Positions 20,527 through 45,593 of a stretch of DNA of 48,339 nucleotides are shown here, in pieces; within the stretch, counting starts at the first letter, position 1, and each line of letters starts with the position of its first letter. The stretch is from Gammaproteobacteria bacterium (GTDB lineage Bacteria > Pseudomonadota > Gammaproteobacteria > Pseudomonadales > Cellvibrionaceae). Where the stretch lies: positions 1-48,339 of the forward strand of contig JANYIO010000211.1 in assembly GCA_025362015.1 (NCBI GenBank), read 5' to 3'. The notes beneath the pieces were generated by a model. The model was not told where the DNA came from. It did no database searches and worked only from the letters and a program-made list of their open reading frames with translations. A program made the translations under genes and the position numbers.

Positions 20527-21387
20527 ATGGCGCCCACTATGTTTAATCCTAACCGTAATTGGATCCTTTGCCGGCAACTATTACTATTATGCGTTTATCT
20601 ATGTTGCGTGCGTGCTAACTCTGCAATTGCCAGTACTCAATATATTTTCATTCCTGACGCAATGTCGCACGACCACATCGACCTCAATTATTACCCGGAA
20701 GAATTGCTGAAATTAGTATTACAAAAAACCGACGCTACCTACGGAAGAACTGAAATAAAATTTTACCCTTTGATTATTGGACGTAATCGCGCAAGAGCCG
20801 TTCTAATGAACAAACTGGGATTAGATGTTATCTGGAGCTCATCTACTCACCAACGCGAAGAACAATTGCTAGCAATAAAATTTAATTTATTTAAAGGCAT
20901 CAATGAATATAAAATTTTACTCATTCGTAACGAAGATCAAGAAAAATTTGCCAAGGTACAAACCTTAGCCGATTTACGTCATTTTAAAGCAGGAACAGGT
21001 ACACATTGGCAAGATACCCAGGTATTAACCTTTAACAACATACCCTTTGTAACCTCGTGGAATTACGAACCTTTGTTTAAGATGCTCGCTGCAAAACGCT
21101 TTGATTATATGGTGCGCGGCTCACAGGAAATTTCGAGTGAATTAGTTCTCCACCCCACCTTACCCTTAATGGCCGAACAGACCTTATTACTCCATTACAA
21201 ACAACCGTTGTACTATTTTGTTCACAAAGACAACACCATACTGGCAGAACGTATTCTCCGCGGATTAAATTTAGCACAAGCTGATGGCAGTTTGGACGCG
21301 TTATTAGAGAGTGTACCTGGTTATATTGCGTTAGATGAATTACATAGCAAGCAACGTAGAGTGTTTGAACTGGCAGACCCCGAATAA
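20527..21387 (+). CDS. Orphan periplasmic solute-binding protein (family 3-like), paralogue A
   Basis: A 286-residue protein with a signal peptide (hydrophobic LLLLCVYLCC, cleavage around ANSAIAS) and a type II periplasmic binding fold. No ABC permease or ATPase is nearby. It shares clear landmarks with the protein at 33767-34636: TYG near residue 70, W-x-DT, NYEPLFKMLAAKRFDYMVRG, then ERILRGLNLAQADGSLDAL. Such orphans often serve as sensory ligand-binding proteins. Its place after two PilZ genes hints at a surface signalling role. The ATG at 20527 is used here; another at 20539 is possible and would shorten the N-terminus by four residues. Confidence 0.8.
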   Translation: MAPTMFNPNRNWILCRQLLLLCVYLCCVRANSAIASTQYIFIPDAMSHDHIDLNYYPEELLKLVLQKTDATYGRTEIKFYPLIIGRNRARAVLMNKLGLDVIWSSSTHQREEQLLAIKFNLFKGINEYKILLIRNEDQEKFAKVQTLADLRHFKAGTGTHWQDTQVLTFNNIPFVTSWNYEPLFKMLAAKRFDYMVRGSQEISSELVLHPTLPLMAEQTLLLHYKQPLYYFVHKDNTILAERILRGLNLAQADGSLDALLESVPGYIALDELHSKQRRVFELADPE

Positions 21388-26689: not shown

Positions 26690-27127
26690 ATGGAGGGCGA
26701 CCTAAACGATTTCTATGCAAACTTAAAAGACATCACCGAAACTACTTTCCCAAAAACATGCTCATCTTGTGGTGCAGTCTATCAAAATTCAGCTGACTTT
26801 CTTACCAAAACAGAAAAAGTTTTTGGAGGCAAAAGTGGATTAAAAGGCTCTTTAGACGACAACGACCAACCCATTATCGAACTGTACCGGAATTGTTCCT
26901 GTGGTTCTACCTTGATGAATTTTTTTTCTGACCGCAGAGATAATAGCGAAAATGGGAATAAAAGGCGTGAAGCTTTTGAGCGTCTACTGATACAACTAGA
27001 ACAAAAAGGTGTAACCCGTGCGGAAGGCCGAGTAGAACTGAAAAAAATACTGAGAGGTCAAGAAAGCGATTTACTAAAATCATATGGGCTAATGCCAATG
27101 CAACCACAACAAAGACCAACTAGTTAA
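26690..27127 (+). CDS. Zinc-ribbon-like protein of unknown function
   Basis: A soluble 145-residue protein with CSSCG at 23-27 and CSCG at about 67-70, spaced to form one treble-clef or ribbon-type metal site. A charged helical region (about 80-125) follows, and the tail is Pro/Gln-rich. It starts at ATG behind GAGGG and is the first of eight co-directional genes that otherwise encode signalling proteins, 32 bases ahead of the REC-PAS gene. No family name comes to mind. It could be a metal- or redox-sensing partner of the cascade, but this is a guess from position. Confidence 0.65.
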   Translation: MEGDLNDFYANLKDITETTFPKTCSSCGAVYQNSADFLTKTEKVFGGKSGLKGSLDDNDQPIIELYRNCSCGSTLMNFFSDRRDNSENGNKRREAFERLLIQLEQKGVTRAEGRVELKKILRGQESDLLKSYGLMPMQPQQRPTS

Positions 27128-27159
27128 AAATAACGCTTGGTGATATATGGGTATAGGTA

Positions 27160-27972
27160 ATGGAGAAAAACTTATTAATTGTTGATGATGAAGAAAACAT
27201 TCTAAAGTCGCTACAGCGACTTTTTCGGCGCGAATCATTCAACATTTTAACAGCACGCTCTGCCCAAGAAGGTTTAGAAATACTTAGCAAAGAAAGTGTT
27301 TCTGTCATCCTTTCTGATCAACGTATGCCAGGAATGATTGGCTCTGATTTTTTTAAAATAGTAAAAGAAAAATACCCTAACACCATCCGTCTTATTATGA
27401 GTGGCTACACTGAGCTCGAAAGTATTACGTCCGCCATTAACGATGGTGCAATTTACAAATTTCTTTTGAAACCGTGGGATGATGAAAAGCTTCTAAGCCA
27501 TATCCGCGAAGCTTTTTCATATCAGGAATTGAAAATTAATAATAGTAGACTCAGTGAAGAAGTCAAAAATCTCAATGAAATACTCGAAGAAAAGCTGAAA
27601 GAAGAAAAAATTAAAAATGAATTCAGCTTTAGAACTCTTATTCTGGCACAACAACTACTTGATAAGATACCCATGGCAGTTTTTGGCATATCCACTGATG
27701 GCCTAATCGTAATGGTGAATCAACATGCTAAATTGTTGACAAACCGAGAAGATATTATTGGCAATCAGTCGGATGAAATATTTCCGGAAGCTATTTGTAA
27801 CGCTATATTCGCAGAAAACCTGACTGAGGAACAAGAAATCGAGTGGCCCAGTATCAACCGCTTAGCCAGAGTGACTCCCATAAATAGCGCGATGGGTAAC
27901 TGCATTTGTGTATCCATACTACCTCCGACACATTCATCAACACTTCTAGTGTCGAAAAAAATACAGGATTAG
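27160..27972 (+). CDS. REC-PAS response regulator
   Basis: A 270-residue protein with an N-terminal receiver domain (phospho-acceptor Asp53 in LSDQRMPGM, conserved lysine in LLKPWDD), a coiled coil (about 125-155), and a PAS-like domain (about 165-260, starting LLDKIPMAVFGISTDGLIV). There is no DNA-binding, cyclase or phosphodiesterase domain. KPWDD is typical of the HupR/RpfG-type receivers. The PAS may bind a cofactor or act as a dimer switch; no ligand residue can be named. It stops 5 bases before the HDOD gene, so coupling is likely. Confidence 0.85.
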   Translation: MEKNLLIVDDEENILKSLQRLFRRESFNILTARSAQEGLEILSKESVSVILSDQRMPGMIGSDFFKIVKEKYPNTIRLIMSGYTELESITSAINDGAIYKFLLKPWDDEKLLSHIREAFSYQELKINNSRLSEEVKNLNEILEEKLKEEKIKNEFSFRTLILAQQLLDKIPMAVFGISTDGLIVMVNQHAKLLTNREDIIGNQSDEIFPEAICNAIFAENLTEEQEIEWPSINRLARVTPINSAMGNCICVSILPPTHSSTLLVSKKIQD

Positions 27973-27976
27973 CGTG

Positions 27977-28822
27977 ATGGAAAGCGAAGAAAAAATACTT
28001 ATTGAACATCTTAAAAAAATGCCGCCGCTCAACGCAGCATTACAAAACACACTCATGTTAATCAATGACAAAAGCAGTGATTACAAAAAAATAAGTGGAG
28101 CCATACTGAAAGACGCCGTGTTAACAGGACGCGTATTACAAATAGCAAACTCATCATTTTATGGATCGCAACGGCAAGTAACAGATCTCGGCATAGCATG
28201 CACTATGTTAGGGCTGGAGACCTTACGTGGCCTTGTATATACCTTAATTTTACTGACAAAATTTCGTAATGGCCCAGAAAACAGTGCCATTGACTACAAC
28301 CTACTTTGGAAATACTGCCTCCGTGTAGCATGCCTGGTAAAGAATTTAGCAAAAGAACAAAAACTTGATTCTAGCGCCGCATTCACAGCAGGGCTATTTC
28401 ACTGCATGGATTTAATTATTCAAGATTATTTTTATACCGACGTTCTATTAGAACGAATAACCAATCAGCCTCATGAACAGTCAACTTCCGAGCAAGCTGC
28501 AACTACTGAGCAAGCCTCTTCGTCAAGCTTAAAAATCTCAACAGTGATGGATACGAAGTATTGGAGCCTTATTGCAATACTACTTGAATATTGGAAATTT
28601 CCAACGGCCATTGTTGAGATATTTAGAAAAACTGAATCTATTCAAGCCCAGCAACAACGTGCCCTTATTAAGGGATGCTCATTATTTATGAAAAAACATC
28701 AACGGTTGGAAGATTTAGCCACACCAATGCAATCAGAAAATATTGTAGAAATAAAATTAATAGCAGCACTGCGCGATAGCGATATTCTTTATGCAGAACT
28801 AGAAGCTTTACTTTTTCAGTAA
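27977..28822 (+). CDS. HDOD-domain protein
   Basis: A 281-residue HDOD protein; the domain is a non-catalytic relative of HD hydrolases used as a signalling scaffold. The family signature is clear: LKKMPPLNAALQ at the start, VLTGRVLQIANSSFYG near 45-60, then GIACTMLGLETLRGLVYTLIL. A Ser/Thr/Gln-rich stretch (TSEQAATTEQASSSS, about 175) interrupts the C-terminal half. The ATG at 27977 is preceded by AGGA; a GTG one codon upstream is also in frame. The gene sits between two receiver proteins, where HDOD proteins often relay phosphorylation state. Confidence 0.88.
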   Translation: MESEEKILIEHLKKMPPLNAALQNTLMLINDKSSDYKKISGAILKDAVLTGRVLQIANSSFYGSQRQVTDLGIACTMLGLETLRGLVYTLILLTKFRNGPENSAIDYNLLWKYCLRVACLVKNLAKEQKLDSSAAFTAGLFHCMDLIIQDYFYTDVLLERITNQPHEQSTSEQAATTEQASSSSLKISTVMDTKYWSLIAILLEYWKFPTAIVEIFRKTESIQAQQQRALIKGCSLFMKKHQRLEDLATPMQSENIVEIKLIAALRDSDILYAELEALLFQ

Positions 28823-28869
28823 CTAAAAATTTTCATGCGCTAACGCGGCACAACGAAAAGGCATGTTAT

Positions 28870-30216
28870 ATGAGCCAAGAAGCTCCACCCAACATAACTA
28901 CCAATGTTAATAGCGCAGCAAAGTCTGACGTTATTGGAACTATTCTTTTTGTAGACGATGAGGAAAATATTCTCACGTCGTTGCGTCGACTAATGCGCAA
29001 ACATCCTATTGCATGCTTATTTGCCAGCAGCGCTCAGGAAGGCCTTGATCTGTTAGAGAAGCAGGCTATAGATGTCATTATTTCAGATATGCGTATGCCC
29101 AATATGGACGGCGCGGAATTTCTTGCAAAATGCAAAAAGAAATGGCCAAGCACTATACGCATCTTATTAACCGGCCATTCCGACATGACCGCAACTATAA
29201 AGGCGCTCAATAAGGGCGGCATTTATCGCTACTTGAACAAACCTTGGGATGATGACGAAATAGTCGACACCATCATGCACGGCTTACAAATTACTCGGCT
29301 TGAAAAAGAAAAAATTGAACTACAACAACTAACACTGCAACAAAACGCACAATTATCAAAATTTAATGAAGAGTTAGAGCTCAGAGTAACCGCAAGAACC
29401 CAGGAAATAACACAAACAGCCGATATGCTCGATTTGGTTTATCAACAATTAAAAGATAGTTATGGAACCTTTGTAAAGCTATTTTCATCCGTTATCGCAA
29501 GCCGAAAATGTCTCGACAAAACACAAGCAAAACGCGTTGCTGAGCTCGCAAAAAAAATAGCAATATCATTGAAATTACCAGATGAAGAAATTAACCAAAT
29601 TTATTTCGCAGGACTTTTAATTGATTTAGGGAAACTAAATTTATCCGATGATATATTAAAAACACCCGAAGAAAATCTTACCGCGGATCAGAAAATAATT
29701 TTTGAAAACCATACACTACTGGCCGACATAACTCTATCGGCAATGCCCGAATTGGAAGCTACCGGAAAAATAATTCGTGACTATATGGAAACCATTGATG
29801 GATCAGGCTTCCCAAGAAAATTAAAAGGTAATGCCATTAATAGAGGTTCGCGAATATTACGCGTAGCGAGAGATTTTGTTGGCCTGCAATCAGGCCTTAT
29901 TAAAGAAATGTGCCTGGACTCAGTGAATGCGCTTAACACTATGAAACCTCTAGTGGGAAAAAAATATGATCCTTATGTAATAAAAGCACTCGAACCCTTA
30001 AGTATTGAATTTGACCTCAGCGATGCTTTCCCACATGAAGTTAAAATTGATGCCTTCAACCTCGTCGCCGGCTTGGTAGTATCGCGCGACATCTATAACT
30101 CCACAGGCATTTTAATGATTTCAAAAAACTTCAAATTAACCGATAACATTATAGAAAAATTAAAATCGATCAATAAAATGCATGAAAACAACTTAAAAAT
30201 ATTTGTTTATAAATAG
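28870..30216 (+). CDS. REC with degenerate HD-GYP-like domain
   Basis: A 448-residue RpfG-like regulator. The receiver domain (about 22-140) is intact, with Asp73 in ISDMRMPNMDG and NKPWDDDE. A coiled coil (about 145-195) follows, then a region with the HD-GYP layout (about 195-370). In the latter HD is replaced by ID (251-252), HHE is YME (305-307), GYP is GFP (313-315), and an early histidine is Gln. One histidine (281) remains. Active enzymes hydrolyse c-di-GMP with these ligands, so this one is probably inactive and regulatory. Another 80 residues extend beyond the domain. Confidence 0.88.
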   Translation: MSQEAPPNITTNVNSAAKSDVIGTILFVDDEENILTSLRRLMRKHPIACLFASSAQEGLDLLEKQAIDVIISDMRMPNMDGAEFLAKCKKKWPSTIRILLTGHSDMTATIKALNKGGIYRYLNKPWDDDEIVDTIMHGLQITRLEKEKIELQQLTLQQNAQLSKFNEELELRVTARTQEITQTADMLDLVYQQLKDSYGTFVKLFSSVIASRKCLDKTQAKRVAELAKKIAISLKLPDEEINQIYFAGLLIDLGKLNLSDDILKTPEENLTADQKIIFENHTLLADITLSAMPELEATGKIIRDYMETIDGSGFPRKLKGNAINRGSRILRVARDFVGLQSGLIKEMCLDSVNALNTMKPLVGKKYDPYVIKALEPLSIEFDLSDAFPHEVKIDAFNLVAGLVVSRDIYNSTGILMISKNFKLTDNIIEKLKSINKMHENNLKIFVYK

Positions 30217-30229
30217 GAGTCAAAAAATC

Positions 30230-30781
30230 ATGACCACCATAGCTTTTATAGATGACGAGCTTAATGTACTCAACGCCATAACTCGCATGCTCCGTAATTG
30301 CGGCTGGAAAATATTAGTTTTTACCTCGCCAGAACAGGCAATCCACGATTTAAAATTGATTGCAGACCTAAGTATTATTGTTTCAGACTACAGAATGCCT
30401 GGAATGGATGGCGTGACCTTATTGAACTCAATAAAACACTTTCACCCAAGAGCATTGCGAATAATATTAAGTGGGCATGCGGACTTACAAACAGTATTAC
30501 TTGCCGTTAACCAAACAGAAATTTATCGCTTCATAACCAAACCATGGGTGGATGAAGAACTATTAATAACACTACAAAAAGCCGTAGAACATCAATCACT
30601 GCTGGAAGAAAATTTAAGGTTATCGCAAATGGTTCGTCAGCAACAGAATAAAATTAATCACCAACTCAGTGAACTAAAGCGACTGGAATCGGATAGCCCG
30701 GGAATTACTCAGGTTGATTTAACTGAAGATGGCTATATAGATTTATCGGATGACTTTTCTTTACTTAATGAAAAACCATAA
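30230..30781 (+). CDS. Stand-alone receiver protein with coiled-coil tail
   Basis: A 183-residue protein. The receiver (about 1-120) has Asp53 in VSDYRMPGMDG, IDDE at the start and ITKPWVDEE with the conserved lysine. A helical tail (QQQNKINHQLSELKRLE) and an acidic end follow (LTEDGYIDLSDDFS). No output domain is visible, so it probably passes phosphate or binds a partner. I chose the ATG at 30230, behind AGGAG and just before MTTIAFIDDE. It starts inside no other gene but only 14 bases after the previous stop, and is the third receiver of the same subclass in this run. Confidence 0.88.
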   Translation: MTTIAFIDDELNVLNAITRMLRNCGWKILVFTSPEQAIHDLKLIADLSIIVSDYRMPGMDGVTLLNSIKHFHPRALRIILSGHADLQTVLLAVNQTEIYRFITKPWVDEELLITLQKAVEHQSLLEENLRLSQMVRQQQNKINHQLSELKRLESDSPGITQVDLTEDGYIDLSDDFSLLNEKP

Positions 30782-30816
30782 GACTCAAGCATATAATATA
30801 CTTCGAGTGCTCCATT

Positions 30817-31869
30817 ATGAAAAAATTTGAAAATGCGTTGCTAACTCGTCAAATTCTTAAACATTTAGACCCTCGCAATGAAAACATTGACGGTCTGGAA
30901 GAACTTTTAAGCGCAGTTGACTTAACCTATGAAATGGCAGAAAGAGACCAGGCGCTAATCAATCATTCTCTGGTTGTTGTATCCGAAGAGCTGACCAGTC
31001 GCAACATGATACTTATCAAAGAAAAAGAAGAACAAAAAGTATTAATAGAAAAATTAGAAGAAGCCCATAACCAATTGTTGCAATCAGAAAAGATGGCATC
31101 CATTGGACAACTTGCCGCCGGGGTGGCGCACGAAATAAATAACCCGATTGGCTATGTCTCATCCAATATTACCACTTTGCGAAATCATATCGATGATTTG
31201 TTTGTATTAATTACCAGCTACATATCGTCAGAAAAAGAATTCCCAGCTGCCACAGCCACTCACTTTGAAAATTTAAGAGACAAACTAGATGTCGAATATC
31301 TAAAAAAAGATATTACCGCTATATTTAAAGAGTCCACCGAAGGCATAACCAAAGTTAAAAAAATAGTGCAGGATTTAAAAGACTTTTCTCGTATAGATAG
31401 TATTGAAAACTGGACGCCCTCTAATATTCATCAAGGTATTGACTCTGCACTTAATATTGCAGCCAATGAAATAAAATACAGCGCAGAAGTTATTAAAGAG
31501 TTTGGTGAAATACCCTATGTTGAATGCATACTATCCCAACTAAACCAGGTTTTTCTAAATTTAATAATAAATGCTGCACACGCTCTCAACAAAGAAAAAA
31601 CAGGAACCATTCGTATAAAAACAGGAACAATCGACAACCTGGTCTGGATAGAATTTAGGGACAATGGCTGCGGAATTCCATCAGAAAATCTTACTAAGAT
31701 ATTTGATCCATTTTTCACAACAAAACCTATCGGCATAGGTACGGGGCTTGGATTATCTATTTCTTATGGTATTGTCCAGAAACACGGTGGAAATATAACT
31801 GTCACCAGCAAATCACAAGAAGGAACATGCTTTAGAATTGAATTACCAATTTATCATGAGAAAAAATAA
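30817..31869 (+). CDS. Cytoplasmic histidine kinase
   Basis: A 350-residue soluble kinase. A short helical N-terminus and coiled coil (about 55-90) lead to the dimerisation domain with phospho-acceptor His105 in GVAHEINNP, then the ATPase domain with INAAHALNKE (N box), FRDNGCGIP (G1) and GTGLGLSISYG (G2). There is no membrane segment or recognisable sensor domain, so input must come from a partner. It follows the lone receiver by 35 bases and is a close relative in its catalytic core of the next kinase. It could phosphorylate the three receivers just upstream. Confidence 0.93.
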   Translation: MKKFENALLTRQILKHLDPRNENIDGLEELLSAVDLTYEMAERDQALINHSLVVVSEELTSRNMILIKEKEEQKVLIEKLEEAHNQLLQSEKMASIGQLAAGVAHEINNPIGYVSSNITTLRNHIDDLFVLITSYISSEKEFPAATATHFENLRDKLDVEYLKKDITAIFKESTEGITKVKKIVQDLKDFSRIDSIENWTPSNIHQGIDSALNIAANEIKYSAEVIKEFGEIPYVECILSQLNQVFLNLIINAAHALNKEKTGTIRIKTGTIDNLVWIEFRDNGCGIPSENLTKIFDPFFTTKPIGIGTGLGLSISYGIVQKHGGNITVTSKSQEGTCFRIELPIYHEKK

Positions 31870-31954
31870 TTATTATAACCATAAAAAATATTAATGACGA
31901 TGTGAATACAGGAAAGTCATAAATGTACTTAATGTTTGCAGTAGAGATTAACCT

Positions 31955-33703
31955 ATGCGGTTAGGCTTGGGGCAACGACTCAATATTACGATAATTGCAG
32001 CGTTTGTATTCTTCTGCATTATATTTATGACAATAAATCTTATTTATTTTTGGCGAGAATCAAATACTACATTCGACAGTAAAATAAATTATCTGGCTGA
32101 TTTTTCAGCAAAAACAAATTCGGAAAACATATGGAATTTTGACACCAAAAACATAAATGTATTTATAAACAGCTTGCTTAATGAAAAAAGTCTTATTGGT
32201 ATAGTTTTTGAATTTTCTGATTTTAACAAAGAAAAAAATAAGCACTTATTTTATGGCTCTGTATCAGGAAAAACAATCAATCAAAATTCAACCAACATTG
32301 AGTCTATTGAACCTGAAAGAAAAACGTTCACTCGCCACATTGAACGCAGCATTACCCATGAAAATATAGTTGTTGGAAAAGTTCATCTCTATTTCTCCGA
32401 CAAATACATTTTTGGCTATGCAATAGATGAAGGAAAGAGATTTTTATTTAATTTAACAATTTTTTTATTGCTCTATTCTCTTGCGATTTACTTTCTGATT
32501 AAAAAACAACTATTAAACCCGCTAAAAGATATACATCAGCTGGCTCTTGGCGTCAGCGGCTTAACCTTCTATCTCAATGAGAGCGTATCTCAAGAACGCT
32601 GGGCGAACATCCAACAATTATTAGATATTGAAAAACTTAACCAACGCAAACTTCAAGAAAAGAAACGCAATGATGAGCTTGGCGATTTTACAGAAACATT
32701 TTTTTTAGTGCTCAATGGATTCGAGCTTATTATTAGTGAACTTTCACAATACTCAGAACAATTACAAACGATGAATGACGACCTGGAAGCTCGCATTTTT
32801 CATAGAACTGCGCAACTGGAAGATTCACATAAAAAAGTATCTGAATCACTACATGCATTGCAACAAACAAAAAATCAACTTGCGCAACAAGAAAAGTTGG
32901 CATCGATTGGCCAATTAGCCGCTGGTGTTGCCCACGAAATCAACAACCCCATTGGTTATGTTGGCAGTAACATTAACAGGCTTACCGAATATTTTAATGA
33001 TTTAAAACACTTGCTATTGGAAATGGAAAAAATGGTAGCTAATCTTCCCATAGAAATAGCGGCAACTATAAAATTAGAATTTGAGAAAATAAAGAATAAT
33101 ATTGATTACCAATTTCTGATCGATGACTTTGGCTCTGTTATTTCAGAGAGCCAGGAAGGAATAAAACGCATAAAAGATATAGTTCAAAGCCTGAAAGATT
33201 TTTCTCACAATGTTGATGAGCATAATTTTTCAGAAGTTGACATAAACGAGGCTGTTAGAACAACGCTTAAAGTGATCAACAATGAATTGAAATACTGCTG
33301 CGACGTTATCGTGGATTTACAGCTTCAAAAACTTGTCCCAGCCAACCTTGGGCAAATTCATCAAGTGGTTTCCAATATTATTATTAATGCGTCACACGCC
33401 ATAAAAGCTACCGAAATTCGTGGAAAATTAACGATCCGAACTTTTAGCGATGAAAGTTTTGCTTACATCGACATTACCGATACCGGCGGAGGGATACCGG
33501 AACATATTCGTTCGAAAGTATTTGATCCTTTTTTCACCACCAAACCCATTGGCCAAGGTACAGGACTCGGTCTAAATATTTGTTACGACATAATCGTTAA
33601 CAAACACCAAGGTGTTCTTAGCTTTGAAAGTCAGCTTGGCAGTGGAACTACATTTACGATTAAGCTGCCCTTATTAGCAGCAACACCTAGTGATGTATTG
33701 TAA
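31955..33703 (+). CDS. Membrane-bound sensor histidine kinase
   Basis: A 582-residue kinase with two membrane helices (about 10-32 and 165-183) flanking a periplasmic or extracellular domain of about 130 residues. A HAMP-like linker and long coiled coil (about 265-315) follow, then phospho-acceptor His327 in GVAHEINNP and a full ATPase domain ([27 protein letters not shown]). The periplasmic part is rich in Asn and Lys and shows no family I recognise. The core matches the preceding cytoplasmic kinase, including the IGYV/GSNI segment after the histidine, suggesting duplication. It is followed at 63 bases by a solute-binding protein that could be its ligand partner. Confidence 0.93.
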
Positions 33704-33766
33704 TAACAATCAAGCACAAACCGATTTTACAAATATATTAATCATTCATTATATGGCTGAATAAGT

Positions 33767-34636
33767 ATGATAATTTCTGCACAGAATAGAATTTATATAC
33801 TATTAATTTTATTTTTTTGCTCCGGCACAAATGCAGAATTTATAATTTCATTACGCTCACCTGAAACAGTAAACGATCAGCGAGAATCTTACAGTTATGA
33901 ATTAGTAAAACTTGCTCTTGAAAAAACGAATATGACTTACGGTAGTTATAAAATTGTCGGTATTCCTTCAATGAATATCACGAGATCAATGCACTCGCTA
34001 GAAAGAGATACATACAAAAATCTTTTAGTAGAATTGAGCTATGACGAAAAATTAGAACAGGAATACAACCTTATTTATGTTAAGTTTCCAGTTGAGTTGG
34101 GGATCACAGGTTATCGAATTTGCTTTATCAACCCCAACAAAATTGAATATGTAAAATCCATTAAGAACATCAGTGAACTACAAAAGCTTATTATTGGCCA
34201 AGGCTTTTCCTGGGCTGACACAGGCATATTGCGCCACAATGGATTTAATGTTGTTGAAATCAGCAACTATGAAAGTCTTTTTAAAATGGTGATTGCGGGA
34301 AGAATAGATTTATTTTGTCGCGGCGCAAACGAATTATTTAATGAGTATGAATCATACAAAAACATGGGAAATTTAATCTACGATACATCCTTTGCAATTT
34401 TTTATCCCCTACCCCGATTTTATTACTTACATAAAAATAATGCAGCTGCAAAAGAACGAATTGAAAAAGGTTTAATCGCCGCTTACGAAGATGGATCTCT
34501 ACAAGCCCTTTGGTTAAAATATTTTATGCCCAGCATTCAATTTGCTAATCTTAATCACCGAAGGATGTACACATTGGAAAATCCTCTCATAAAATCCCTA
34601 GCAAATGATTACGAAAAATATTTCTATAAGCCTTGA
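33767..34636 (+). CDS. Orphan periplasmic solute-binding protein (family 3-like), paralogue B
   Basis: A 289-residue protein with a signal peptide (hydrophobic YILLILFFCSG, cleaved near TNA) and a type II binding-protein fold. It shares a run of landmarks with the protein at 20527-21387: TYG, W-x-DTG, NYESLFKMVIAGRIDLFCRG, and ERIEKGLIAAYEDGSLQAL. No transporter genes are near. Being last in the kinase cluster, directly after a membrane kinase, it is a plausible ligand-presenting subunit. This is inference from position and from known systems where binding proteins feed kinases. The ribosome site is weak. Confidence 0.8.
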   Translation: MIISAQNRIYILLILFFCSGTNAEFIISLRSPETVNDQRESYSYELVKLALEKTNMTYGSYKIVGIPSMNITRSMHSLERDTYKNLLVELSYDEKLEQEYNLIYVKFPVELGITGYRICFINPNKIEYVKSIKNISELQKLIIGQGFSWADTGILRHNGFNVVEISNYESLFKMVIAGRIDLFCRGANELFNEYESYKNMGNLIYDTSFAIFYPLPRFYYLHKNNAAAKERIEKGLIAAYEDGSLQALWLKYFMPSIQFANLNHRRMYTLENPLIKSLANDYEKYFYKP

Positions 34637-34706: not shown

Positions 34707-36596
34707 TCAAACTGCTAAGTCGACTAAATTACCTTTGGCTTCCAGCCAATTTTTTCTGTCGCCGGCGCGTTTTTTATTGAGTAGCATATCCATAATTTGC
34801 ATAGTGTCATCATCGCTATCAATGGTAAGTTGCACCAGGCGACGCGTATCGCGCGCCATAGTAGTTTCGCGCAGCTGCAAAGGATTCATTTCACCTAACC
34901 CTTTAAAGCGTTGCACATTTACTTTACCTTTTTTATTTTCAGCAATAATGCGGTTGAGCACGCCTTGTTTTTCACTTTCATCAAGCGCGTAGTAAACATC
35001 TTTACCAATGTCGATGCGATACAGCGGCGGCATGGCAACATAAATATAACCGTTACGCACCAACACCGGGAAATGCCGAACAAACAACGCACACAGTAGC
35101 GTTGCAATGTGCAAACCATCTGAGTCAGCATCCGCGAGAATACAAATTTTGTGGTAACGTAATTCACTCAAATCATCGCTGCCAGGGTCCATACCAATGG
35201 CAACTGAAATATCATGTACTTCCTGGCTGGCTAAAATTTCTGATGAATCCACTTCCCAAGTATTCAGAATTTTTCCACGCAGCGGCATGATCGCTTGAAA
35301 CTCGCGATCGCGCGCTTGTTTTGCCGAACCACCAGCCGAATCACCTTCCACTAAAAATAATTCACTGAGTGCTGGTTCACCACTGGAACAGTCGGCTAAT
35401 TTACCGGGCAAGGCAGGCCCTTGGGTGATTTTTTTACGTGCAACTTTTTTGCTGGAACGAACACGTTTTTGTGCATTGTTAATGCAAAAGTCCGCAATTT
35501 TATCGCCATCTTCTGTGTGTTGGTTTAACCAAAGCGCAAAGGCATCTTTAGCAACGCCGGAAATAAATGGCGCGGCTTCGCGGGAGGTTAAGCGCTCTTT
35601 GGTTTGTCCGGAAAATTGTGGATCTGACAATTTATAAGAAAGCACAAAGCAGCAACTATTCCACAAATCTTCTGGTGCAAGTTTAATGCCGCGCGGAATT
35701 AAATTACGAAACTCACAATAGTCGCGAATCGCATCCAACAAACCGGTACGAAAACCATTAACATGGGTGCCGCCTTGTGCAGTCGGAATTAAATTCACAT
35801 AACTTTCTTGCACTAGTTCGCCGCCTTCTGGCAACCATTGCACGGCCCAATTTACCGCTGCAGTAGTTGCACTGAAATCGCCAACGAAAGGCTGCGCTGG
35901 TAAAGTTTCCCACTCCTGAGTTGTACCGGCGAGATAATCTTTTAAACCATCTTCATAAAACCATTCATCTTTCTCGCCGGTTTGTTCATCAAGAAAGGTA
36001 ACGCTTAAGCCAGAACACAATACAGCTTTTGCGCGCAATATATGGCGCAGGCGACTCACTGAAAATTTTGGTGAATCAAAATACATTGGATTTGGTAAAA
36101 ATTTTACGCTAGTGCCGGTTTGACGCTTGGGGCAGGTGTCGATAATTTCTAAATCGCTAGCCTTATCGCCATTCGCAAAACCCATGCGATAAACATTGCC
36201 ATCGCGTTTAATAGTCACTTCTAATTTGTCGGAAAGTGCATTCACCACCGACACACCAACTCCGTGCAAGCCGCCAGAGAATTGATAATTTTTATTGGAA
36301 AACTTTCCACCGGCATGCAGTGTACATAAAATAACTTCTACTCCGGGCTTGCCTTGCTCGGGATGCATATCCACTGGCATACCACGACCGTCATCCGTTA
36401 CAGTGACTGATTGATCTTTATGTAAAATAACTTCAATTGTTTTGGCGTGGCCAGCGAGCGCCTCATCCACCGAGTTGTCAATAATTTCCTGGGCAAGGTG
36501 ATTCGGGCGCGTGGTTTCGGTATACATACCGGGGCGCTTTTTTACCGGATCTAAACCAGTAAGTACTTCAATATCTTCTGCGGAATAATTAGCCAT
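34707..36596 (-). CDS. parE: DNA topoisomerase IV subunit B
   Basis: ATPase subunit of topoisomerase IV, which unlinks daughter chromosomes with ParC. The 629-residue protein has the GHKL ATPase start (VDEALAGHAKTIEV, DDGRGMPVD, GGLHGVGVSVVNALS), a transducer domain, and the TOPRIM region with ELFLVEGDSAGGSAKQ and DADSDGLHI. The ParE C-terminus FKGLGEMNP and QLRETTM is clear. The length separates it from GyrB, which is longer. It is third in cpdA-yqiA-parE, a block conserved in gammaproteobacteria, and starts 61 bases after yqiA. Confidence 0.97.
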   Translation of the reverse strand: MANYSAEDIEVLTGLDPVKKRPGMYTETTRPNHLAQEIIDNSVDEALAGHAKTIEVILHKDQSVTVTDDGRGMPVDMHPEQGKPGVEVILCTLHAGGKFSNKNYQFSGGLHGVGVSVVNALSDKLEVTIKRDGNVYRMGFANGDKASDLEIIDTCPKRQTGTSVKFLPNPMYFDSPKFSVSRLRHILRAKAVLCSGLSVTFLDEQTGEKDEWFYEDGLKDYLAGTTQEWETLPAQPFVGDFSATTAAVNWAVQWLPEGGELVQESYVNLIPTAQGGTHVNGFRTGLLDAIRDYCEFRNLIPRGIKLAPEDLWNSCCFVLSYKLSDPQFSGQTKERLTSREAAPFISGVAKDAFALWLNQHTEDGDKIADFCINNAQKRVRSSKKVARKKITQGPALPGKLADCSSGEPALSELFLVEGDSAGGSAKQARDREFQAIMPLRGKILNTWEVDSSEILASQEVHDISVAIGMDPGSDDLSELRYHKICILADADSDGLHIATLLCALFVRHFPVLVRNGYIYVAMPPLYRIDIGKDVYYALDESEKQGVLNRIIAENKKGKVNVQRFKGLGEMNPLQLRETTMARDTRRLVQLTIDSDDDTMQIMDMLLNKKRAGDRKNWLEAKGNLVDLAV

Positions 36597-38401: not shown

Positions 38402-38914
38402 TCAATGTAGCGATAATAAATCGCTTGGGCTTTTATCAAATAGGCAGCGTAAATCTAACACCGGGTAAAGAGTATCCTCATCCCTAAATGCGGCATGGGA
38501 AAGCAACCGCCAAACTGTTTTCAATTCTGTTAGAGGAACACTTTGCTGAGGCTTTACCGACATTAACTTTGGCACTCCTTGTAAAAAAATTGCACCGAAA
38601 TCAATTTTACCCTGAGCGTTTTCATAGGCAATAATGGCTGCAATTTGTTCGCCGTTAGTCATAGGAATACGGCGACGTTCCGTCAAACTATATAAATCCA
38701 ATGCGGGAATAAAATGGTCGTGCCACTGAAAACCTTTTTCGCAGTAAGCCGGCAAGCCTGGCAGGGTTACACTATCGGTAATATATTCAATATATTTTAA
38801 TTCGTGTTGGCCAACGGCAACTGATGCACCATGACCTATAGGTAATATCCACGCACCAAGCGCTACAGTGTTAGCCGTTACATCATCTATTACCGGTTTC
38901 ATTTCATTGCTCAT
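38402..38914 (-). CDS. CheW-like coupling protein (third in operon)
   Basis: A 170-residue CheW-domain protein, last of the chemosensory unit. The beta-barrel pattern is recognisable (ALGAWILPIG, YIEYITDSVTLPGLPAYCEKGFQW, HFIPALDLYSL, ending TLYPVLDLRCLF), though divergent from canonical CheW. Such proteins link receptor and CheA. Its start overlaps the stop of the preceding CheW gene by one base, so the two are translated together and might act as a pair. It resembles ChpC-type proteins of the Pil-Chp system more than CheW proper, a guess from divergence and place. Confidence 0.8.
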   Translation of the reverse strand: MSNEMKPVIDDVTANTVALGAWILPIGHGASVAVGQHELKYIEYITDSVTLPGLPAYCEKGFQWHDHFIPALDLYSLTERRRIPMTNGEQIAAIIAYENAQGKIDFGAIFLQGVPKLMSVKPQQSVPLTELKTVWRLLSHAAFRDEDTLYPVLDLRCLFDKSPSDLLSLH

Positions 38915-39474
38915 TAACCGGCTCCTTGCAATACAGTTGTTAAATTCTGCTGTGCAACGAGCTTGGCTCCGCGCAAACGTAACAACGCAGATAAAGCAGC
39001 CGTAGAACTTAAACCTACTGCACGATGATTAATAATCGTAAATTCAGTAAAGGGTTGTTTACGGCTACGCATGCTCGGCGGTACAGAATAAAACGATAAG
39101 GTTGGACTAGTTTGCTTTATCAATTCGTGGCAGGAAATTCCCCACAAAATATTTCGATCACGCAACAGTACAATAGTGCTATGCGCCGCAGCGATTGATG
39201 ATTGTAATTGCAATGCTTTATTCAAACAAAAAATTGCATAATATTGTTGCTCAAACTCTAAATAACCACAGTCAAATGAAGACCGCGGTTGTGCAACAAG
39301 CTGCGCCGATGAAACCAGCGAAATGATTTCATTACTCGGAATAAAAATACTGAAATCACCACAATCCATCAACGCCAATTCCGGAGTTAGCGGACTAGCC
39401 TGCGGTGCCAGCGTGAGTTGTTTTTTATCTGGCAATTGCTTGCCCAACAAAACATCTTCATCGATAGGATTCAT
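38914..39474 (-). CDS. CheW-like coupling protein (second in operon)
   Basis: A 186-residue protein with a divergent CheW-type barrel: ELALMDCGDFSIFIPSNEIISLV at the start of the domain (about 33), YAIFCLNKALQL in the middle, and RAVGLSSTAALSALLRLRG at the end. The first 30 residues are a polar extension. It overlaps the CheA-like gene by 4 bases and the next CheW gene by 1 base. Strong divergence suggests a structural rather than a generic coupling role. Confidence 0.7.
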   Translation of the reverse strand: MNPIDEDVLLGKQLPDKKQLTLAPQASPLTPELALMDCGDFSIFIPSNEIISLVSSAQLVAQPRSSFDCGYLEFEQQYYAIFCLNKALQLQSSIAAAHSTIVLLRDRNILWGISCHELIKQTSPTLSFYSVPPSMRSRKQPFTEFTIINHRAVGLSSTAALSALLRLRGAKLVAQQNLTTVLQGAG

Positions 39475-42467
39475 AGGTGAACCGTGTCCTGTATATGACG
39501 CAACAATTCTTCTTCAGAAAAAGGTTTATTTAAGTAAGTATCGACCCCAGCGGCACTGGCTAGATTGCGATGCTTTTCAGTGTTCCGCGAAGTAATCATA
39601 ATGACCGGAATATGTTTGGTTTGCTCACCAGCACGCACATGTGCAGTAAACTCCAAACCATTCATACGTGGCATTTCCATATCCACCAGTATAATACTCG
39701 GCATTTGTTCTTCTAAAACTTCTATAGCTTCAAAACCATCTTTTGCAGTGCGCACATCCATACCAATATCATTAACAAATTGCGCTAGCGAACGGCGCGT
39801 ACTGAGAGAATCATCCACAACTAATGCCATAGGTCTTGCTTCACTATTTTGTTGACTGAGCCGCAGAGCGTCGGCCATCCATTGATTATTGTGAACACCG
39901 GTTTGCAACAAATCCAGCACTAACTGTTGCACGTCTACCACGGGTGCAACTTCACCGTCACCTAAAATAGTCGCACCTATAATACCGGGAATGACAGGCG
40001 TTAATGATGAAAGCGGCTTGATAACTATTTCGCGGCTTGCAGCAACACGCTCAACCAACACGCCAACATATTGCCCCGGCAAACTTTCAATAATTAATAA
40101 TGCATTAGCATGAGTGGTATTGATGTTAACGGCATTGGGTAACTGCGCTAATTGTGCGATATGAAAAACTTCAATCTCTTTATTATTGTATTGATAATAT
40201 ATTTGCTGGCCACGATTTTTTAAATCCGTAGGATTCAAATACAACAACTGTTCAACTCCGCGCGCCGAAATAGCCAGTTGATGATGACCACTCATCACTA
40301 ATAATCCATGTTCCGCAATCATGGTCATGGGCAAACGAATAGTAAATTCACAACCTGATAGCTTCTGACCAGCAATGGCTGCGCGGCTATCATTTGTTGA
40401 ACGACTATCAACACTGATACGCCCTTTTAATTCAGCGACACGATCAGCGACCATATCTAAACCTATACCGCGGCCGGATGTTTGGCTAACTTTATCGCGG
40501 GTAGAAAAGCCGGCGGTAAAAATTAATTGTTTCAACCACAACTCAATAACTTCTTCATTAGCATTCACTGGCGCTGTTAATGATAACTCCAAGGCTTTGG
40601 TTGCAATGCGATCGTGGTTTAAACCTGAGCCATCATCAGCTACCTGAATTAAAATAGATTGGCCTTGTGCGCGAAAACGCAGCTCTACAATACCCTCAGC
40701 AGATTTGCCCTGAGCAAGACGTTGCTGTGCATCCTCAATACCGTGATCAACGGCATTGCGCAATAAATGCATCAACGGATCAATCAAGTCATGTAACACT
40801 CGGCTATCAATCATGGTATCGCCGCCAACAACTATCAGCCGCGCATTTTTTCCCGTTAACCGACAAGCCTGGCGGACACAACGCTGGAACCGCGGTTCCA
40901 TAGTATTAGCAGGAACCATGCGCATCTCTAATAAATGATTTTGGCTTTCACGATTGGTAACTTGCTGTTCGTAAGTAAGATCTTCAAGCTTGCGCAACTG
41001 CCCATGGGTTTGCTGAATTGCATCGCGCGTATCTATGGCAAATTCTTGTAATTGATGGAAAAAACTGTGTAATTCATTGTAACGATCTAACTCCAGCGGA
41101 TCTAAACCATCTTCATTTTTTGTGCGCATACGATTATTAAACAATTCGCGCACTTCAATTAAATGACCAAACTCCTCCGTTAAATTGGTAAGCTTATGAT
41201 GCAACTGGCCGATATGGAGCATTTGCTGTTTTACATCCTGCACTTGCGTTTGCAGGCGATTTGTTGCGATAGCACTTTCACCAGCCAAGCGTAACAAATC
41301 TTTAGCCGTTTCTTCTTTCACCCGTAACTGAGTGGCAATAGCCTCCTGTAGATTAGAGGCCTGACTTGCAGGAACTAAAGCATCAGCAACGAATTCTGTT
41401 ACTGCTGATTCTGTTACTGACATTTCTGTTAGTGTTTGCTCCTCCACATTAAGCGACGTTGTTTTTGCAGTGAACGCTTGCTGATCGTAGCTGGCAATAT
41501 TTTCGACACACATTTCATCATGCGAATCTTGCACTTCAACTTCAGCTGGCAAACCAAATTCACGAATACTATGGTACGCATCTAGCACTTGCTGCATGAC
41601 TTGCAACTCAAACTCGCCAACTGAATCGCCACTTAATAAATTATCCAACATCGCCGCGAGCGTATCGGACACATCAAGTAATAAATTTTTAAGTGATGAT
41701 GCTAAAGCACCTTCATGTCGTGAAATTTCTTCCAATAAATCTTCACAATAATGCATGAAATTTGCAAGCCCACCAATACCCACAACATTAGCGGAACCTT
41801 TAAGGGTATGTGCAATACGTTGTGCACTAGCAAGTGCAGCTTTATTCTGTGTGCTATTATATTTTTCAATTTGCTCTGCAAAACCACTCACTTGCAAAGG
41901 CATTTCTAACATTAATCCTTCAAATAATTCTGGATTTATATCGTCGCTGAAGCGAAGCGAAATTAGAGCGGCATCGGCAATAGTTGGAAGCCGATTAGCA
42001 GCATCGTCAGACGCCACAATTTCGGTGGTGGCAAGTTTGTCACAGAGTGCGTGTTGCAGCTCATTTGGTAATCGCAACGGCCATGCATTATCGCTTAAAA
42101 ATTCAATGATGCCGCTAATGGCAGAAGGTGCAATATTTTCTTCTGTGAGTTGCTGTAAATAATCTAAAAAATAAATAGTCCATGAATCAATCAATAAAGC
42201 CTGTTCATCAGTAATGGCGTGATCGGCAGCAGCCATTGCTTGAAAATTATCATGCAAGTGCTGCCAGGCATCCACCAAGCCAGTGAGACCCATTAACTCA
42301 GCAGCACCCGAAAAATTTCCCGACAACTCTGCCAGCTCGGCTAAACGCTCCCCATCGCAACCAAGTTGTGCGCTGTGATCCATGGAAAAGTCCAACTGTC
42401 CTTGTAGTTCGCCAGTGAGAAATTCAAGTAGCTCCTGCTGCTCGCGCGATAAAGATTTTGGATTCAT
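39471..42467 (-). CDS. CheA-type hybrid histidine kinase with receiver (ChpA-like)
   Basis: A 998-residue kinase of a chemosensory array. Layout: an N-terminal degenerate Hpt-like region without a usable histidine (about 1-150), an Hpt domain with His220 in AHTLKGSANV, a variable linker, and a dimerisation and ATPase core (MHLLRNAVDHGIE, VADDGSGLN, GRGIGLDMV). A CheW-like domain (about 710-860) and a C-terminal receiver (about 875-998, SIILVDMEMPRMNG) follow. This is the ChpA/PilL plan with fewer Hpt modules. The linker contains a 15-bp tandem repeat (TESAVTE). It would phosphorylate the PilG- and PilH-like receivers encoded at the front of the operon. Confidence 0.94.
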   Translation of the reverse strand: MNPKSLSREQQELLEFLTGELQGQLDFSMDHSAQLGCDGERLAELAELSGNFSGAAELMGLTGLVDAWQHLHDNFQAMAAADHAITDEQALLIDSWTIYFLDYLQQLTEENIAPSAISGIIEFLSDNAWPLRLPNELQHALCDKLATTEIVASDDAANRLPTIADAALISLRFSDDINPELFEGLMLEMPLQVSGFAEQIEKYNSTQNKAALASAQRIAHTLKGSANVVGIGGLANFMHYCEDLLEEISRHEGALASSLKNLLLDVSDTLAAMLDNLLSGDSVGEFELQVMQQVLDAYHSIREFGLPAEVEVQDSHDEMCVENIASYDQQAFTAKTTSLNVEEQTLTEMSVTESAVTEFVADALVPASQASNLQEAIATQLRVKEETAKDLLRLAGESAIATNRLQTQVQDVKQQMLHIGQLHHKLTNLTEEFGHLIEVRELFNNRMRTKNEDGLDPLELDRYNELHSFFHQLQEFAIDTRDAIQQTHGQLRKLEDLTYEQQVTNRESQNHLLEMRMVPANTMEPRFQRCVRQACRLTGKNARLIVVGGDTMIDSRVLHDLIDPLMHLLRNAVDHGIEDAQQRLAQGKSAEGIVELRFRAQGQSILIQVADDGSGLNHDRIATKALELSLTAPVNANEEVIELWLKQLIFTAGFSTRDKVSQTSGRGIGLDMVADRVAELKGRISVDSRSTNDSRAAIAGQKLSGCEFTIRLPMTMIAEHGLLVMSGHHQLAISARGVEQLLYLNPTDLKNRGQQIYYQYNNKEIEVFHIAQLAQLPNAVNINTTHANALLIIESLPGQYVGVLVERVAASREIVIKPLSSLTPVIPGIIGATILGDGEVAPVVDVQQLVLDLLQTGVHNNQWMADALRLSQQNSEARPMALVVDDSLSTRRSLAQFVNDIGMDVRTAKDGFEAIEVLEEQMPSIILVDMEMPRMNGLEFTAHVRAGEQTKHIPVIMITSRNTEKHRNLASAAGVDTYLNKPFSEEELLRHIQDTVHL
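41393..41437 (-). repeat. Three 15-bp tandem units in the CheA linker
   Basis: Units at 41393-41407, 41408-41422 and 41423-41437 share ATTCTGTTACTG-type sequence, the first two nearly identical. They lie in the linker between the Hpt and kinase core and keep the frame. Confidence 0.85.
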
Positions 42468-42539
42468 GAAGCTTTTCTCTGGATACAGAACGAATAACTC
42501 ACCATTCTAATTTTTAGCGATTCCAGTTGTGGCACAGCA

Positions 42540-44432
42540 CTACGCACTAAGTGCTTGATTACCAATCTGTGGCTGGTTGGCAACAGGCTGCGACTGGTTA
42601 GCTACAGGCTGTAGCGGTAACGCAGCTCGTGAATCTAAAAGAAATTCTGGTAACGTAAATATATTTACACGTTCCACCAGCAAACGAGCACATAATTTCA
42701 ATTCATCAGTTTGCTCGCGCTGTTCTTCTAATTGTTGATGCGTTTTTTCGGTAGATTGAGTAATCATGCCGGCGCGGTCACGCATACGGTTAGCCATGGT
42801 CGCTTGGTTAATTGAACTAACGGCAATGGATTTTACATGGTTTACCAATTGGCGAGTCGCAGCCTCTGTTTCATGCATACGCTGACCAGAATCTTCCGCA
42901 AGCTTTGTACCCTCTGCCACCTGAGTAATTAACTTATTCATAATATTTACCGTATCGGATGTTTCAACACGAATATTATTTACCATCGCCGAAATTTCTG
43001 AAGTTGCACCACGTGCGTTTTCAGCGAGACGTTGCACCTCTTCGGCTACCACAGCAAAACCCTTACCCGCTTCACCCGCGGATGCGGCATGCATACTAGC
43101 ATTGAGTGCCAAAATATGAGTGCGTTCCGCAATAGTATTAATTAAGTTTACGATACTCGTAATTTCTTGTGAGCGATCACCCAAACGTTTAATACGCTTT
43201 TCTGTTTCAGAAATGGTGCCACGAATTGTTTGAATGCCTTCTACTGTTTGAATTACTGACTGCTGCGCCTTTAATGTATAGTCAATTGCTGCAGTGGCAA
43301 TATGGTTTGCACTACGCGCTTCCTTGGCAATATCGCTCATTGCTTTAGCTGATTGATCTAATGCGCTTACTGTTTCAGCAACTTGAATACGCTCTTCCTC
43401 AGCCACTACAACCACAATGGCAGATTGCGACTGTAACCTGTCTGAAATTGCATTAATTTTTTCCGAAAATTCTTTTACTTGATACAACGTACGCGCTGTT
43501 TCAGAAGTTAATAAGTTCACCGCATCAGAAACAATACCGGTTACATCCGAAGAAACCGGCACTTTAATCGTCAAGTCTTTTTTGGCAATCATTGCCAGGG
43601 CGCGAATCAAACCAATAATGGATGTATTGAGCGTTTCATTTTCACGAGACTTCTCAGAAAGTACCTTAATACGCTCATCGAGCAAGCGGTTAAATGCACG
43701 CCCCAATGTTCCCAGTTCATCATCAGCTTTAATCGTTACACGAGCGCTATCATTCCCACGATTAAGCTGTGCAATAATGGACTGCATGTGCCACAAGGGG
43801 ATGACGATACTGCGATAAATCAGAAATAACCCTAGCGTCGTACCAACCGCAGTAAGAAACATAACCAAGGCAAACATGGTCTGCGCAATATTCAAATCGC
43901 CTTGCGCCACAGCAATGCGCTTCACAACACTGGCATCTATTACACTGCGATAATCCTGCAAAGCAGTATTAACATTCGCGATTGATTCGGTTAACTCCAG
44001 CTTTAAATTTTCTTTATCAAGAACATTTTTTGCTGTCATTAATTCGGTTACTTTATTAACCTTCTCATCCAACGCGGTCATCGCATTTTTTATTTTGCTT
44101 AAGGCATTTGCATTCACATAACGGCGATTCAGAGTGCCCAGCTGTGTTACCACTCCATTAATCTGCAACTTACCTGCGAGATAAGATGACAATTGCCCTT
44201 CATCACCAGAATCAATATACAAAGGTGTTTCTGTACGAATTTCAACACCGGAACTCAAAGCAGATGAAATTGATTGATCAACGGTTTTTAAATTAGCATT
44301 TGCCTCTACAATAATTTTTTCTGACGCAATCTGAGCGTAGTAAGCCACCCCCATCAGTAAAAAACCCGCAACCAACCCAATCATCAAACTACTAATTTTG
44401 TGAGAAATTTTAATTCCCGATAACTTATTCAT
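42540..44432 (-). CDS. Methyl-accepting chemotaxis protein, PilJ-like
   Basis: A 630-residue receptor with two membrane helices (about 14-34 and 181-205) enclosing a helical periplasmic domain of about 145 residues. A HAMP domain and a long cytoplasmic coiled coil follow. The signalling tip reads IAERTHILALNASMHAASAG and then FAVVAEEVQRLAENA, the form seen in PilJ-type receptors rather than in flagellar MCPs. The last 30 residues hold a QPVANQ repeat. It is encoded between CheW and CheA genes and would feed them. No CheR or CheB is present, so methylation may come from elsewhere or not occur. Confidence 0.93.
   Translation of the reverse strand: MNKLSGIKISHKISSLMIGLVAGFLLMGVAYYAQIASEKIIVEANANLKTVDQSISSALSSGVEIRTETPLYIDSGDEGQLSSYLAGKLQINGVVTQLGTLNRRYVNANALSKIKNAMTALDEKVNKVTELMTAKNVLDKENLKLELTESIANVNTALQDYRSVIDASVVKRIAVAQGDLNIAQTMFALVMFLTAVGTTLGLFLIYRSIVIPLWHMQSIIAQLNRGNDSARVTIKADDELGTLGRAFNRLLDERIKVLSEKSRENETLNTSIIGLIRALAMIAKKDLTIKVPVSSDVTGIVSDAVNLLTSETARTLYQVKEFSEKINAISDRLQSQSAIVVVVAEEERIQVAETVSALDQSAKAMSDIAKEARSANHIATAAIDYTLKAQQSVIQTVEGIQTIRGTISETEKRIKRLGDRSQEITSIVNLINTIAERTHILALNASMHAASAGEAGKGFAVVAEEVQRLAENARGATSEISAMVNNIRVETSDTVNIMNKLITQVAEGTKLAEDSGQRMHETEAATRQLVNHVKSIAVSSINQATMANRMRDRAGMITQSTEKTHQQLEEQREQTDELKLCARLLVERVNIFTLPEFLLDSRAALPLQPVANQSQPVANQPQIGNQALSA
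42567..42608 (-). repeat. Two 21-bp tandem units at the MCP C-terminus
   Basis: Units at 42567-42587 and 42588-42608 differ at four or five bases and encode the QPVANQ-type heptapeptides at the C-terminal tail, beyond the signalling coiled coil. Confidence 0.8.
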
Positions 44433-44524
44433 TGCCTAACTCCAGAATTTTCATTCATCGTTGTTGAAGGTTCTTTTGTTCTTCTAACAAAGTGCTTCGG
44501 ATATAACCATTAAAACAACTTTCA

Positions 44525-45130: not shown

Positions 45131-45230
45131 TCTTAAACTCTTTATACCTGTTAAGAATTCTTACAAACGGCGGCCAGATAAAATGAAGCCGCCATGGCCC
45201 CACCTATAAAACTCTGCATTGCAAGTAGCA

Positions 45231-45593
45231 TTACAAAGCAGCAATAGTGTCGAGAATTTGATCATGAGTGTAAGGCTTACTAATCATTGCTTTTCCACCT
45301 TGCAATTCACCCCACACACGATCTGCGCGTTGGTTTTTACTGGTGACAAATACTACTGGAATACTAGCAAGGTCTTTATCGCCAACGATGTTACGACAAG
45401 CCTCAAATCCATCAACGCCCTCCATTACCACATCCATCAATATTACATCTGGACGATATGTTTTTGCTTTATCATAAGCATCCTGACCATTGGTTGCAGT
45501 AATAACTTGATAGCCCGCATCAGAAACAATATCTTTTAAATGCTTTAAATCTACGGGTGAGTCATCTACGATCATAATACGATTCGGTTTCAT
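45231..45593 (-). CDS. Single-domain response regulator, PilH-like
   Basis: A 120-residue receiver with no output domain. IVDDSPVDL holds the acidic pair, Asp54 in LMDVVMEGVDG is the phospho-acceptor, the threonine is in VFVTSK and the lysine in ISKPYTHDQI. The close order and the KP-Y-T ending fit PilH, the second receiver of Pil-Chp systems. Its start overlaps the preceding receiver gene by 4 bases (ATGA), so both are translated together. Confidence 0.92.
   Translation of the reverse strand: MKPNRIMIVDDSPVDLKHLKDIVSDAGYQVITATNGQDAYDKAKTYRPDVILMDVVMEGVDGFEACRNIVGDKDLASIPVVFVTSKNQRADRVWGELQGGKAMISKPYTHDQILDTIAAL

Follow-up and report, generated by a model that had tools for sequence, protein, structure and literature searches.

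A NosR-family signalling cluster with HDOD, receiver and kinase genes in a member of the Cellvibrionaceae, and its probable change of input

A run of eight genes in a gammaproteobacterium of the family Cellvibrionaceae probably represents a multi-component phosphorelay cluster of the NosR/HnoD type in which the input has changed. The run occupies positions 26690-34636 (+ strand) of contig JANYIO010000211.1 (assembly GCA_025362015.1), which was analysed as one stretch of 48,339 nucleotides (nt), hereafter called the window. Its fourth gene codes for a NosR-family regulator with a degenerate HD-GYP domain, and most of the surrounding gene types recur beside NosR-type genes in other genomes. The genes, and a hairpin that follows them, are:

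26690..27127, + strand: gene 1, small zinc-ribbon-like protein with four conserved cysteines (CxxC...CxC), function unassigned
27160..27972, + strand: gene 2, response regulator with a receiver (REC; Pfam, 8.8e-22) and a PAS domain (PAS_9, below the cut-off, 4.8e-4)
27974..28822, + strand: gene 3, stand-alone HDOD protein (Pfam HDOD, 6.7e-32), with an ATG at 27977
28870..30216, + strand: gene 4, NosR-family regulator (NF053512), a receiver followed by a degenerate HD-GYP domain (Pfam receiver and HD_5, 2e-30)
30230..30781 (alternative TTG start at 30203), + strand: gene 5, single-receiver response regulator (Pfam receiver)
30817..31869, + strand: gene 6, histidine kinase (HATPase_c and HisKA) with zero hydrophobic segments
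31955..33703, + strand: gene 7, membrane histidine kinase (HATPase_c; HisKA below the cut-off)
33767..34636, + strand: gene 8, secreted-looking protein with a hydrophobic N-terminus and weak similarity to SBP_bac_3
34735..34749, + strand: terminator-like hairpin (pattern match) after gene 8, within the 3' end of the convergent parE-like gene

Gene 4 passes the NCBIfam model NF053512 (‘nitric_RR_NosR’) with 480.5 bits against a cut-off of 400, and so represents a hub of a known kind, that of the NosR/HnoD-type degenerate HD-GYP regulators. The same model is passed by ten out of ten other NosR-type genes, taken from clusters with H-NOX, with FIST, or with neither nearby. When aligned with further HD-GYP proteins from the same genome, the HD domain of gene 4 retains two of the six residues (H-D, H, H-H, D) which we take to be the metal ligands of HD-GYP enzymes. 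On this comparison an active HD-GYP enzyme was rejected, and it supports a preliminary description, made from the window's sequence alone, which had proposed that the protein is inactive. Among 80 relatives, all six residues are kept in one, five in 41, and three or fewer in 38. Judged by its residues, gene 4 is thus degenerate, within a family whose members have often, though not always, lost the site. In a NosR tree the window groups with G246, Hahella, two Halomonadaceae and G041 (support 100/100); the nearest of these is G246, a genome of the same order, with a NosR protein of 52% identity.

The genes around the hub recur as a set. The clearest example is found in Hahella sp. CCB-MM4, where six of the eight genes occur in the order zinc-ribbon-like, REC-PAS, HDOD, kinase, NosR, REC, with identities of 39% (zinc-ribbon-like), 58% (REC-PAS, residues 5-223), 34% (HDOD), 49% (NosR) and 51% (REC). 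When named genomes were scanned, 551 relatives were confirmed, and the counts that follow refer to the best 80 of these 551, which are mutually related and whose loci were annotated with profiles built from those same loci. Two loci (L116 and L140) were left out of the run counts, as they have no NosR open reading frame passing the overlap filter, and 20 of the remaining 78 have less than 4 kb of sequence on one side of NosR. The runs co-directional with NosR contain a kinase in 72 cases, HDOD and REC-PAS in 40 each, FIST in four, a zinc-ribbon-like gene in three and H-NOX in one. REC-PAS, HDOD, kinase and NosR stand together in a single run at 31 of the 78 loci, and at 15 a small REC also follows NosR directly (small RECs were recounted separately, as the REC label in the run annotation includes REC-ATPase genes). 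The preliminary description had held that finding at least five of the eight genes together elsewhere would support a system; six were found in Hahella and a five-gene set at these 15 loci, and the genes do form a recurring set.

The association is one of close proximity. HDOD genes number 42 within 4 kb of the 78 NosR genes (40 on the same strand) vs 4 at a distance of 4-8 kb, and REC-PAS genes 32 vs 8; the nearer zone comprises 577 kb of sequence and the farther one 486 kb. Where the preceding gene is annotated (39 HDOD genes), it is a REC-PAS gene on the same strand in 36 cases, if an intervening small gene is ignored; an extra small protein of about 105 residues is encoded between the two in many loci. 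At 17 other response-regulator loci of the window's own genome (about 1.5 kb on each side), no separate HDOD gene was found; two weak matches to the HDOD profile are HD-GYP proteins, so that no locus shows a separate HDOD.

The run behaves as a cassette that was either gained here or lost in congeners, as far as can be told from comparing sites. With a threshold of E <= 1e-60, the gene 4 protein was not found in 20 of 20 genomes of the same genus. Twelve parE sites of congeners, read over about 12 kb beyond the gene, carry none of genes 1-7 at E <= 1e-10. At five of these 12 sites a lipase-like gene lies in the stretch, while different genes follow parE at the other seven. In G004 and G006 the lipase-like gene immediately adjoins the parE-like gene (the site being empty), other open reading frames intervene in G009, and a different regulator/kinase pair lies between the two in G003 and G005, with domains checked in G005. 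G+C content is 0.364 in the run vs 0.427 and 0.420 in its flanks. The presence of a different regulator/kinase pair at the same site in two congeners might be taken to mean that the eight are independent genes that merely happen to be neighbours. We consider this extremely unlikely, as the gene order recurs in other families; chance adjacency was rejected on the combined grounds of the order in Hahella, the proximity of HDOD and REC-PAS to NosR, and the co-occurrence of the four gene types at 31, and of the five at 15, of 78 loci.

The arrangement within the window is that of a compact unit. As described previously, all eight open reading frames are on the + strand with short intergenic gaps of 1-85 nt (32, 1, 47, 13, 35, 85 and 63 nt from gene 1 to gene 8, counted with the ATG start of gene 5), and it is from this spacing that co-transcription of the eight would be predicted. 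A promoter scan of the region gave no excess (27 found vs 30.7 expected), and the terminator-like pattern occurs at 8 sites across the region vs 7.1 expected. The run is flanked, on the other strand in both cases, by a lipase-like gene with Pfam matches below the cut-off and by a gene with gyrase B and Toprim domains (Pfam), convergent to the run, which is presumably parE. The domain labels originally given to the eight genes fit overall, except that those of zinc-ribbon, PAS and solute-binding protein are below Pfam cut-offs. The sequences also bear out the earlier reading of the receivers and kinases: the receivers of genes 2, 4 and 5 retain the acidic pair, the phosphoacceptor aspartate (SDxRMP) and a common KPWxD motif, and kinases 6 and 7 share their core, having a near-identical phosphoacceptor helix with 21 residues in common.

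The best NCBIfam match of both kinases is T2SS_HK (NF038348), at 334 bits for gene 6 and 258 for the other, below the cut-off of 450. Gene 7 has two hydrophobic segments about 130 residues apart (starting at residues 12 and 164), and a search of 381 genomes from the order matched its residues 1-280 in two (E <= 1e-8), its own and G296. In G296 (L048, outside the 80 loci) the gene for this type of kinase lies directly before REC-PAS and HDOD. Gene 3 has relatives of known structure (3m1t and 3hc1 in the PDB). According to passages of PMC4114195, an HDOD regulator from Desulfovibrio was inactive on cyclic di-GMP (c-di-GMP), and another from Xanthomonas, GsmR, is cited as having no phosphodiesterase activity; both would fit a gene 3 product that does not act as an enzyme.

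Gene 1 is the least conspicuous member. It has a match to the CSL zinc finger below the cut-off (Pfam E = 0.0014), weak zinc-finger matches in a PDB profile search, and a predicted structure with a score of 64.6. Within the order, 10 of 390 genomes were found to encode a similar protein (E <= 0.001), and within the class 13 of 369 (E <= 1e-5), its own included in each case; in many genomes the gene is distant from signalling genes. We nevertheless retain gene 1 as a member of the cluster because zinc-ribbon-like genes recur within or near such runs: they are co-directional in the NosR run at L076, L085 and L131, about 2 kb or less from NosR-type genes at L230, L232 and L234, and about 2 kb or less from kinases at L053, L054 and L237.

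Membership of gene 8 is a different matter, and a seven-gene system into which gene 8 came as an unrelated insertion is a serious contender, if not quite an even prospect. The gene 8 family has 12 matches in its own genome (itself included) and up to 25 in one congener, and is present in 34 of 57 genomes. The best relatives of gene 8 in seven other genomes, five of them of the same genus, have no kinase directly beside them; in L210 one lies 4.7 kb away. No phmmer match to gene 8 was found in 88 cluster loci, and its G+C content (0.331) is the lowest of the eight. Against an insertion, gene 8 follows gene 7 on the same strand after a gap of 63 nt and is the last gene before the terminator-like hairpin, and at two loci a comparable arrangement was seen. 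At L034 (7095-10919) the gene for a periplasmic binding protein of the phosphonate type (PF12974, 211 bits) is followed directly by a kinase gene and then by one of the NosR family, and at L088 (11868-14620) a 245-residue secreted-looking protein with no Pfam match is encoded directly before the kinase of a NosR cluster. Both secreted proteins are unrelated to gene 8 (phmmer), but the order at L034 indicates that a binding protein and a kinase do co-occur in such clusters, where a binding protein may possibly provide the input to a NosR system.

The nature of gene 8 as a binding protein is itself weakly marked. It scores 14.6 bits with SBP_bac_3 (E = 0.028; gathering score 26.4), five of 11 aligned family members match this domain with E values no higher than 0.1, the lowest being 3.8e-05, its profile has no match in the PDB at E up to 0.1, and a single-sequence structure prediction has a mean predicted local distance difference test (pLDDT) value of 32. 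As the family is expanded in this lineage and gene 8 is not conserved in the cluster, the earlier proposal that ligand input passes through a binding protein is unproven, with the expanded family and the relatives lacking an adjacent kinase speaking against it and the arrangements at L034 and L088 in its favour. A second member of the family is present in the window (20527-21387, + strand, 32% identity), adjoining a gene which we take to be radA; relatives also adjoin a radA-like gene at L198, L200 and L206.

NosR-type regulators have been studied as outputs of nitric oxide signalling, yet the profiles found no nitric oxide sensor in 73 of the 78 named runs. The other five contain FIST (four) or H-NOX (one); as the sequence on one side is shorter than 4 kb at 20 of the 78 loci, and the FIST profile was seeded with two sequences from these loci (L093, a Pfam-confirmed FIST, and L154), some sensors may be missed. 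In the window's own genome (a draft, 96% complete, of 328 contigs totalling 4.5 Mb) there is no match to HNOB/H-NOX (PF07700), nor is there a match to FIST (PF08495) in the draft or in the run. A system that simply responds to nitric oxide, with the sensor encoded elsewhere and feeding the cytoplasmic kinase, would be consistent with the NosR model passed by gene 4, with the few runs that do contain a sensor, and with close relatives: the gene 4 protein is found at E <= 1e-60 in eight of 57 genomes searched, its own included, and four of the seven others have an H-NOX gene no more than 5 kb from the gene 4 homologue. We rank such a system low, as quite improbable, because the draft genome has no HNOB or FIST match. 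Since NF053512 covers clusters in which no nitric oxide sensor was found in the run, the name may be overextended in annotation, and on these sequence comparisons proof would be needed before it is applied to other clusters.

The reading we favour, that of a NosR/HnoD-type phosphorelay cluster with a changed input, would operate as follows. Kinases 6 (apparently cytoplasmic) and 7 (in the membrane) would set the phosphorylation of three receivers, those of the REC-PAS, NosR-like and REC proteins, with the membrane kinase occupying the place that an H-NOX or NosP sensor takes, together with a kinase, in some related clusters. As most of the metal site of gene 4 is lost, the NosR-like hub would most likely act by contact rather than catalysis, binding a separate enzyme or machine and modulating it, on the model of HnoD and the phosphodiesterase HnoB; we infer both such a partner and a link to c-di-GMP. 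The products of genes 3 (HDOD) and 5 (single receiver) may serve as adaptor or sink, and the gene 8 product may bind a periplasmic solute and modulate the membrane kinase. Several observations weigh against this reading. The H-NOX neighbours in four of seven close relatives have just been described, and in a draft genome of 328 contigs an absent sensor could be a gap. The window is long-branched and of unusual composition in the NosR tree, inactivity is not a trait of the family, as 41 of 80 relatives keep five of the six metal-site residues, and gene 8 is not conserved in the cluster. Finally, the run contains no EAL gene (Pfam), a result limited to the run, no search for a gene like HnoB having been made in the rest of the genome.

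A possible output is suggested by genes that accompany the set elsewhere. A gene for a receiver-fused T2SSE ATPase occurs at 16 of the 80 named loci, between 27 nt and 7.7 kb from NosR, and an MglA-like GTPase gene at 19, including all of these 16 (by similarity); in some loci the GTPase gene follows the REC gene. The ATPase (about 745 residues) consists of a receiver, MshEN and T2SSE in all four examples scanned (L080, L229, L077 and L101), and both GTPases scanned (L085 and G246) match Arf. Both genes are found, for example, at L077, L080, L084, L085 and L101, and also at L229. Their joint presence near NosR at 16 of 80 loci suggests surface machinery as one output.

It might be argued further that the cluster in the window governs a type IV pilus or a type II secretion-like machine. 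The 16 loci support this, as does the tree-nearest relative G246, which carries both halves, an HDOD-kinase-NosR-REC run being convergent with a REC-PAS-GTPase-kinase-REC-ATPase run in which the ATPase and GTPase domains were checked; the top match of the window kinases to T2SS_HK, though below its cut-off, points in the same direction. However, the window has neither the GTPase nor the ATPase gene, neither was seen at the Hahella locus, and the four T2SSE matches listed, of five in the own genome, begin at query residue 174 or later, so that the receiver part is shown in none of these four. We regard control of such a machine by the cluster as unlikely. About 4 kb from the run, the window also contains a chemosensory run (38402-46498, - strand) with CheW-like proteins, a CheA-type kinase (Hpt, CheW and receiver), a chemoreceptor and receivers, which we take to resemble the Pil-Chp set of twitching motility. 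An MHYT-repeat protein (Pfam 2.2e-43) is encoded at 47116-47877 (+ strand).

A broader interpretation may be offered tentatively: a widespread cassette in which two proteins of the HD fold, HDOD and an often-inactivated NosR, gather kinase inputs and pass them by contact to surface machinery (in relatives, a Ras-like GTPase and a receiver-fused ATPase of a pilus or secretion type), with nitric oxide as one of several exchangeable inputs. If that were so, the ‘nitric oxide’ name of the family would mislead. To our knowledge, the roles of HDOD proteins are largely unknown, and if the cassette is one system they gain concrete candidate partners. In that case the link to the MglA-like GTPase and the receiver-fused ATPase would also point to a way, open to experiment, in which kinase signals could reach machines at the cell surface.

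Among the papers listed from the open literature, judged by title and the beginning of the abstract, we found no description of the cluster, most subscription journals being outside the search, and no paper there that pairs HDOD with NosP or NosR. The cluster is not mentioned in the available part of a survey of small GTPases (PMC4316618), nor were HDOD and HD-GYP found in that of PMC2907700. The preliminary description knew of no named system with this set, a view that is not supported, as gene 4 is of the NosR family and the run resembles two published systems, compared here with those parts of the reports that were accessible. One is NosRPK of Burkholderia, comprising the FIST sensor NosP, the kinase NosK and NosR, where NosR is degenerate and is phosphorylated by NosK (PMC12570481). 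Common to both are adjacent genes, a regulator with a receiver and a degenerate HD-GYP domain, and a HEINN-motif kinase without a membrane part (gene 6, like NosK). Unlike NosRPK, no FIST sensor was found in the run, and beyond NosRPK it adds REC-PAS, HDOD, a single REC, a membrane kinase, and the zinc-ribbon-like and secreted proteins.

The second is the Hno network of Shewanella oneidensis (HnoK/HnoS-HnoB/HnoC/HnoD), in which two kinases act on three regulators, and HnoB, a phosphodiesterase, is suppressed by the degenerate HnoD (PMC6335343; also PMC8846402). The likeness, drawn from its description, lies in the two kinases, three receivers and one degenerate HD-GYP protein. The run differs in that no H-NOX, EAL phosphodiesterase or DNA-binding regulator was found in it, while it has HDOD and PAS. 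A third comparison is with the NosR-HDOD clusters of Beta- and Gammaproteobacteria, such as that of Hahella sp. CCB-MM4 (L076). In these the secreted protein was not seen, and one kinase lies between HDOD and NosR where the run has two after REC, but the same six gene types are present and, except for the kinase, in the same order.

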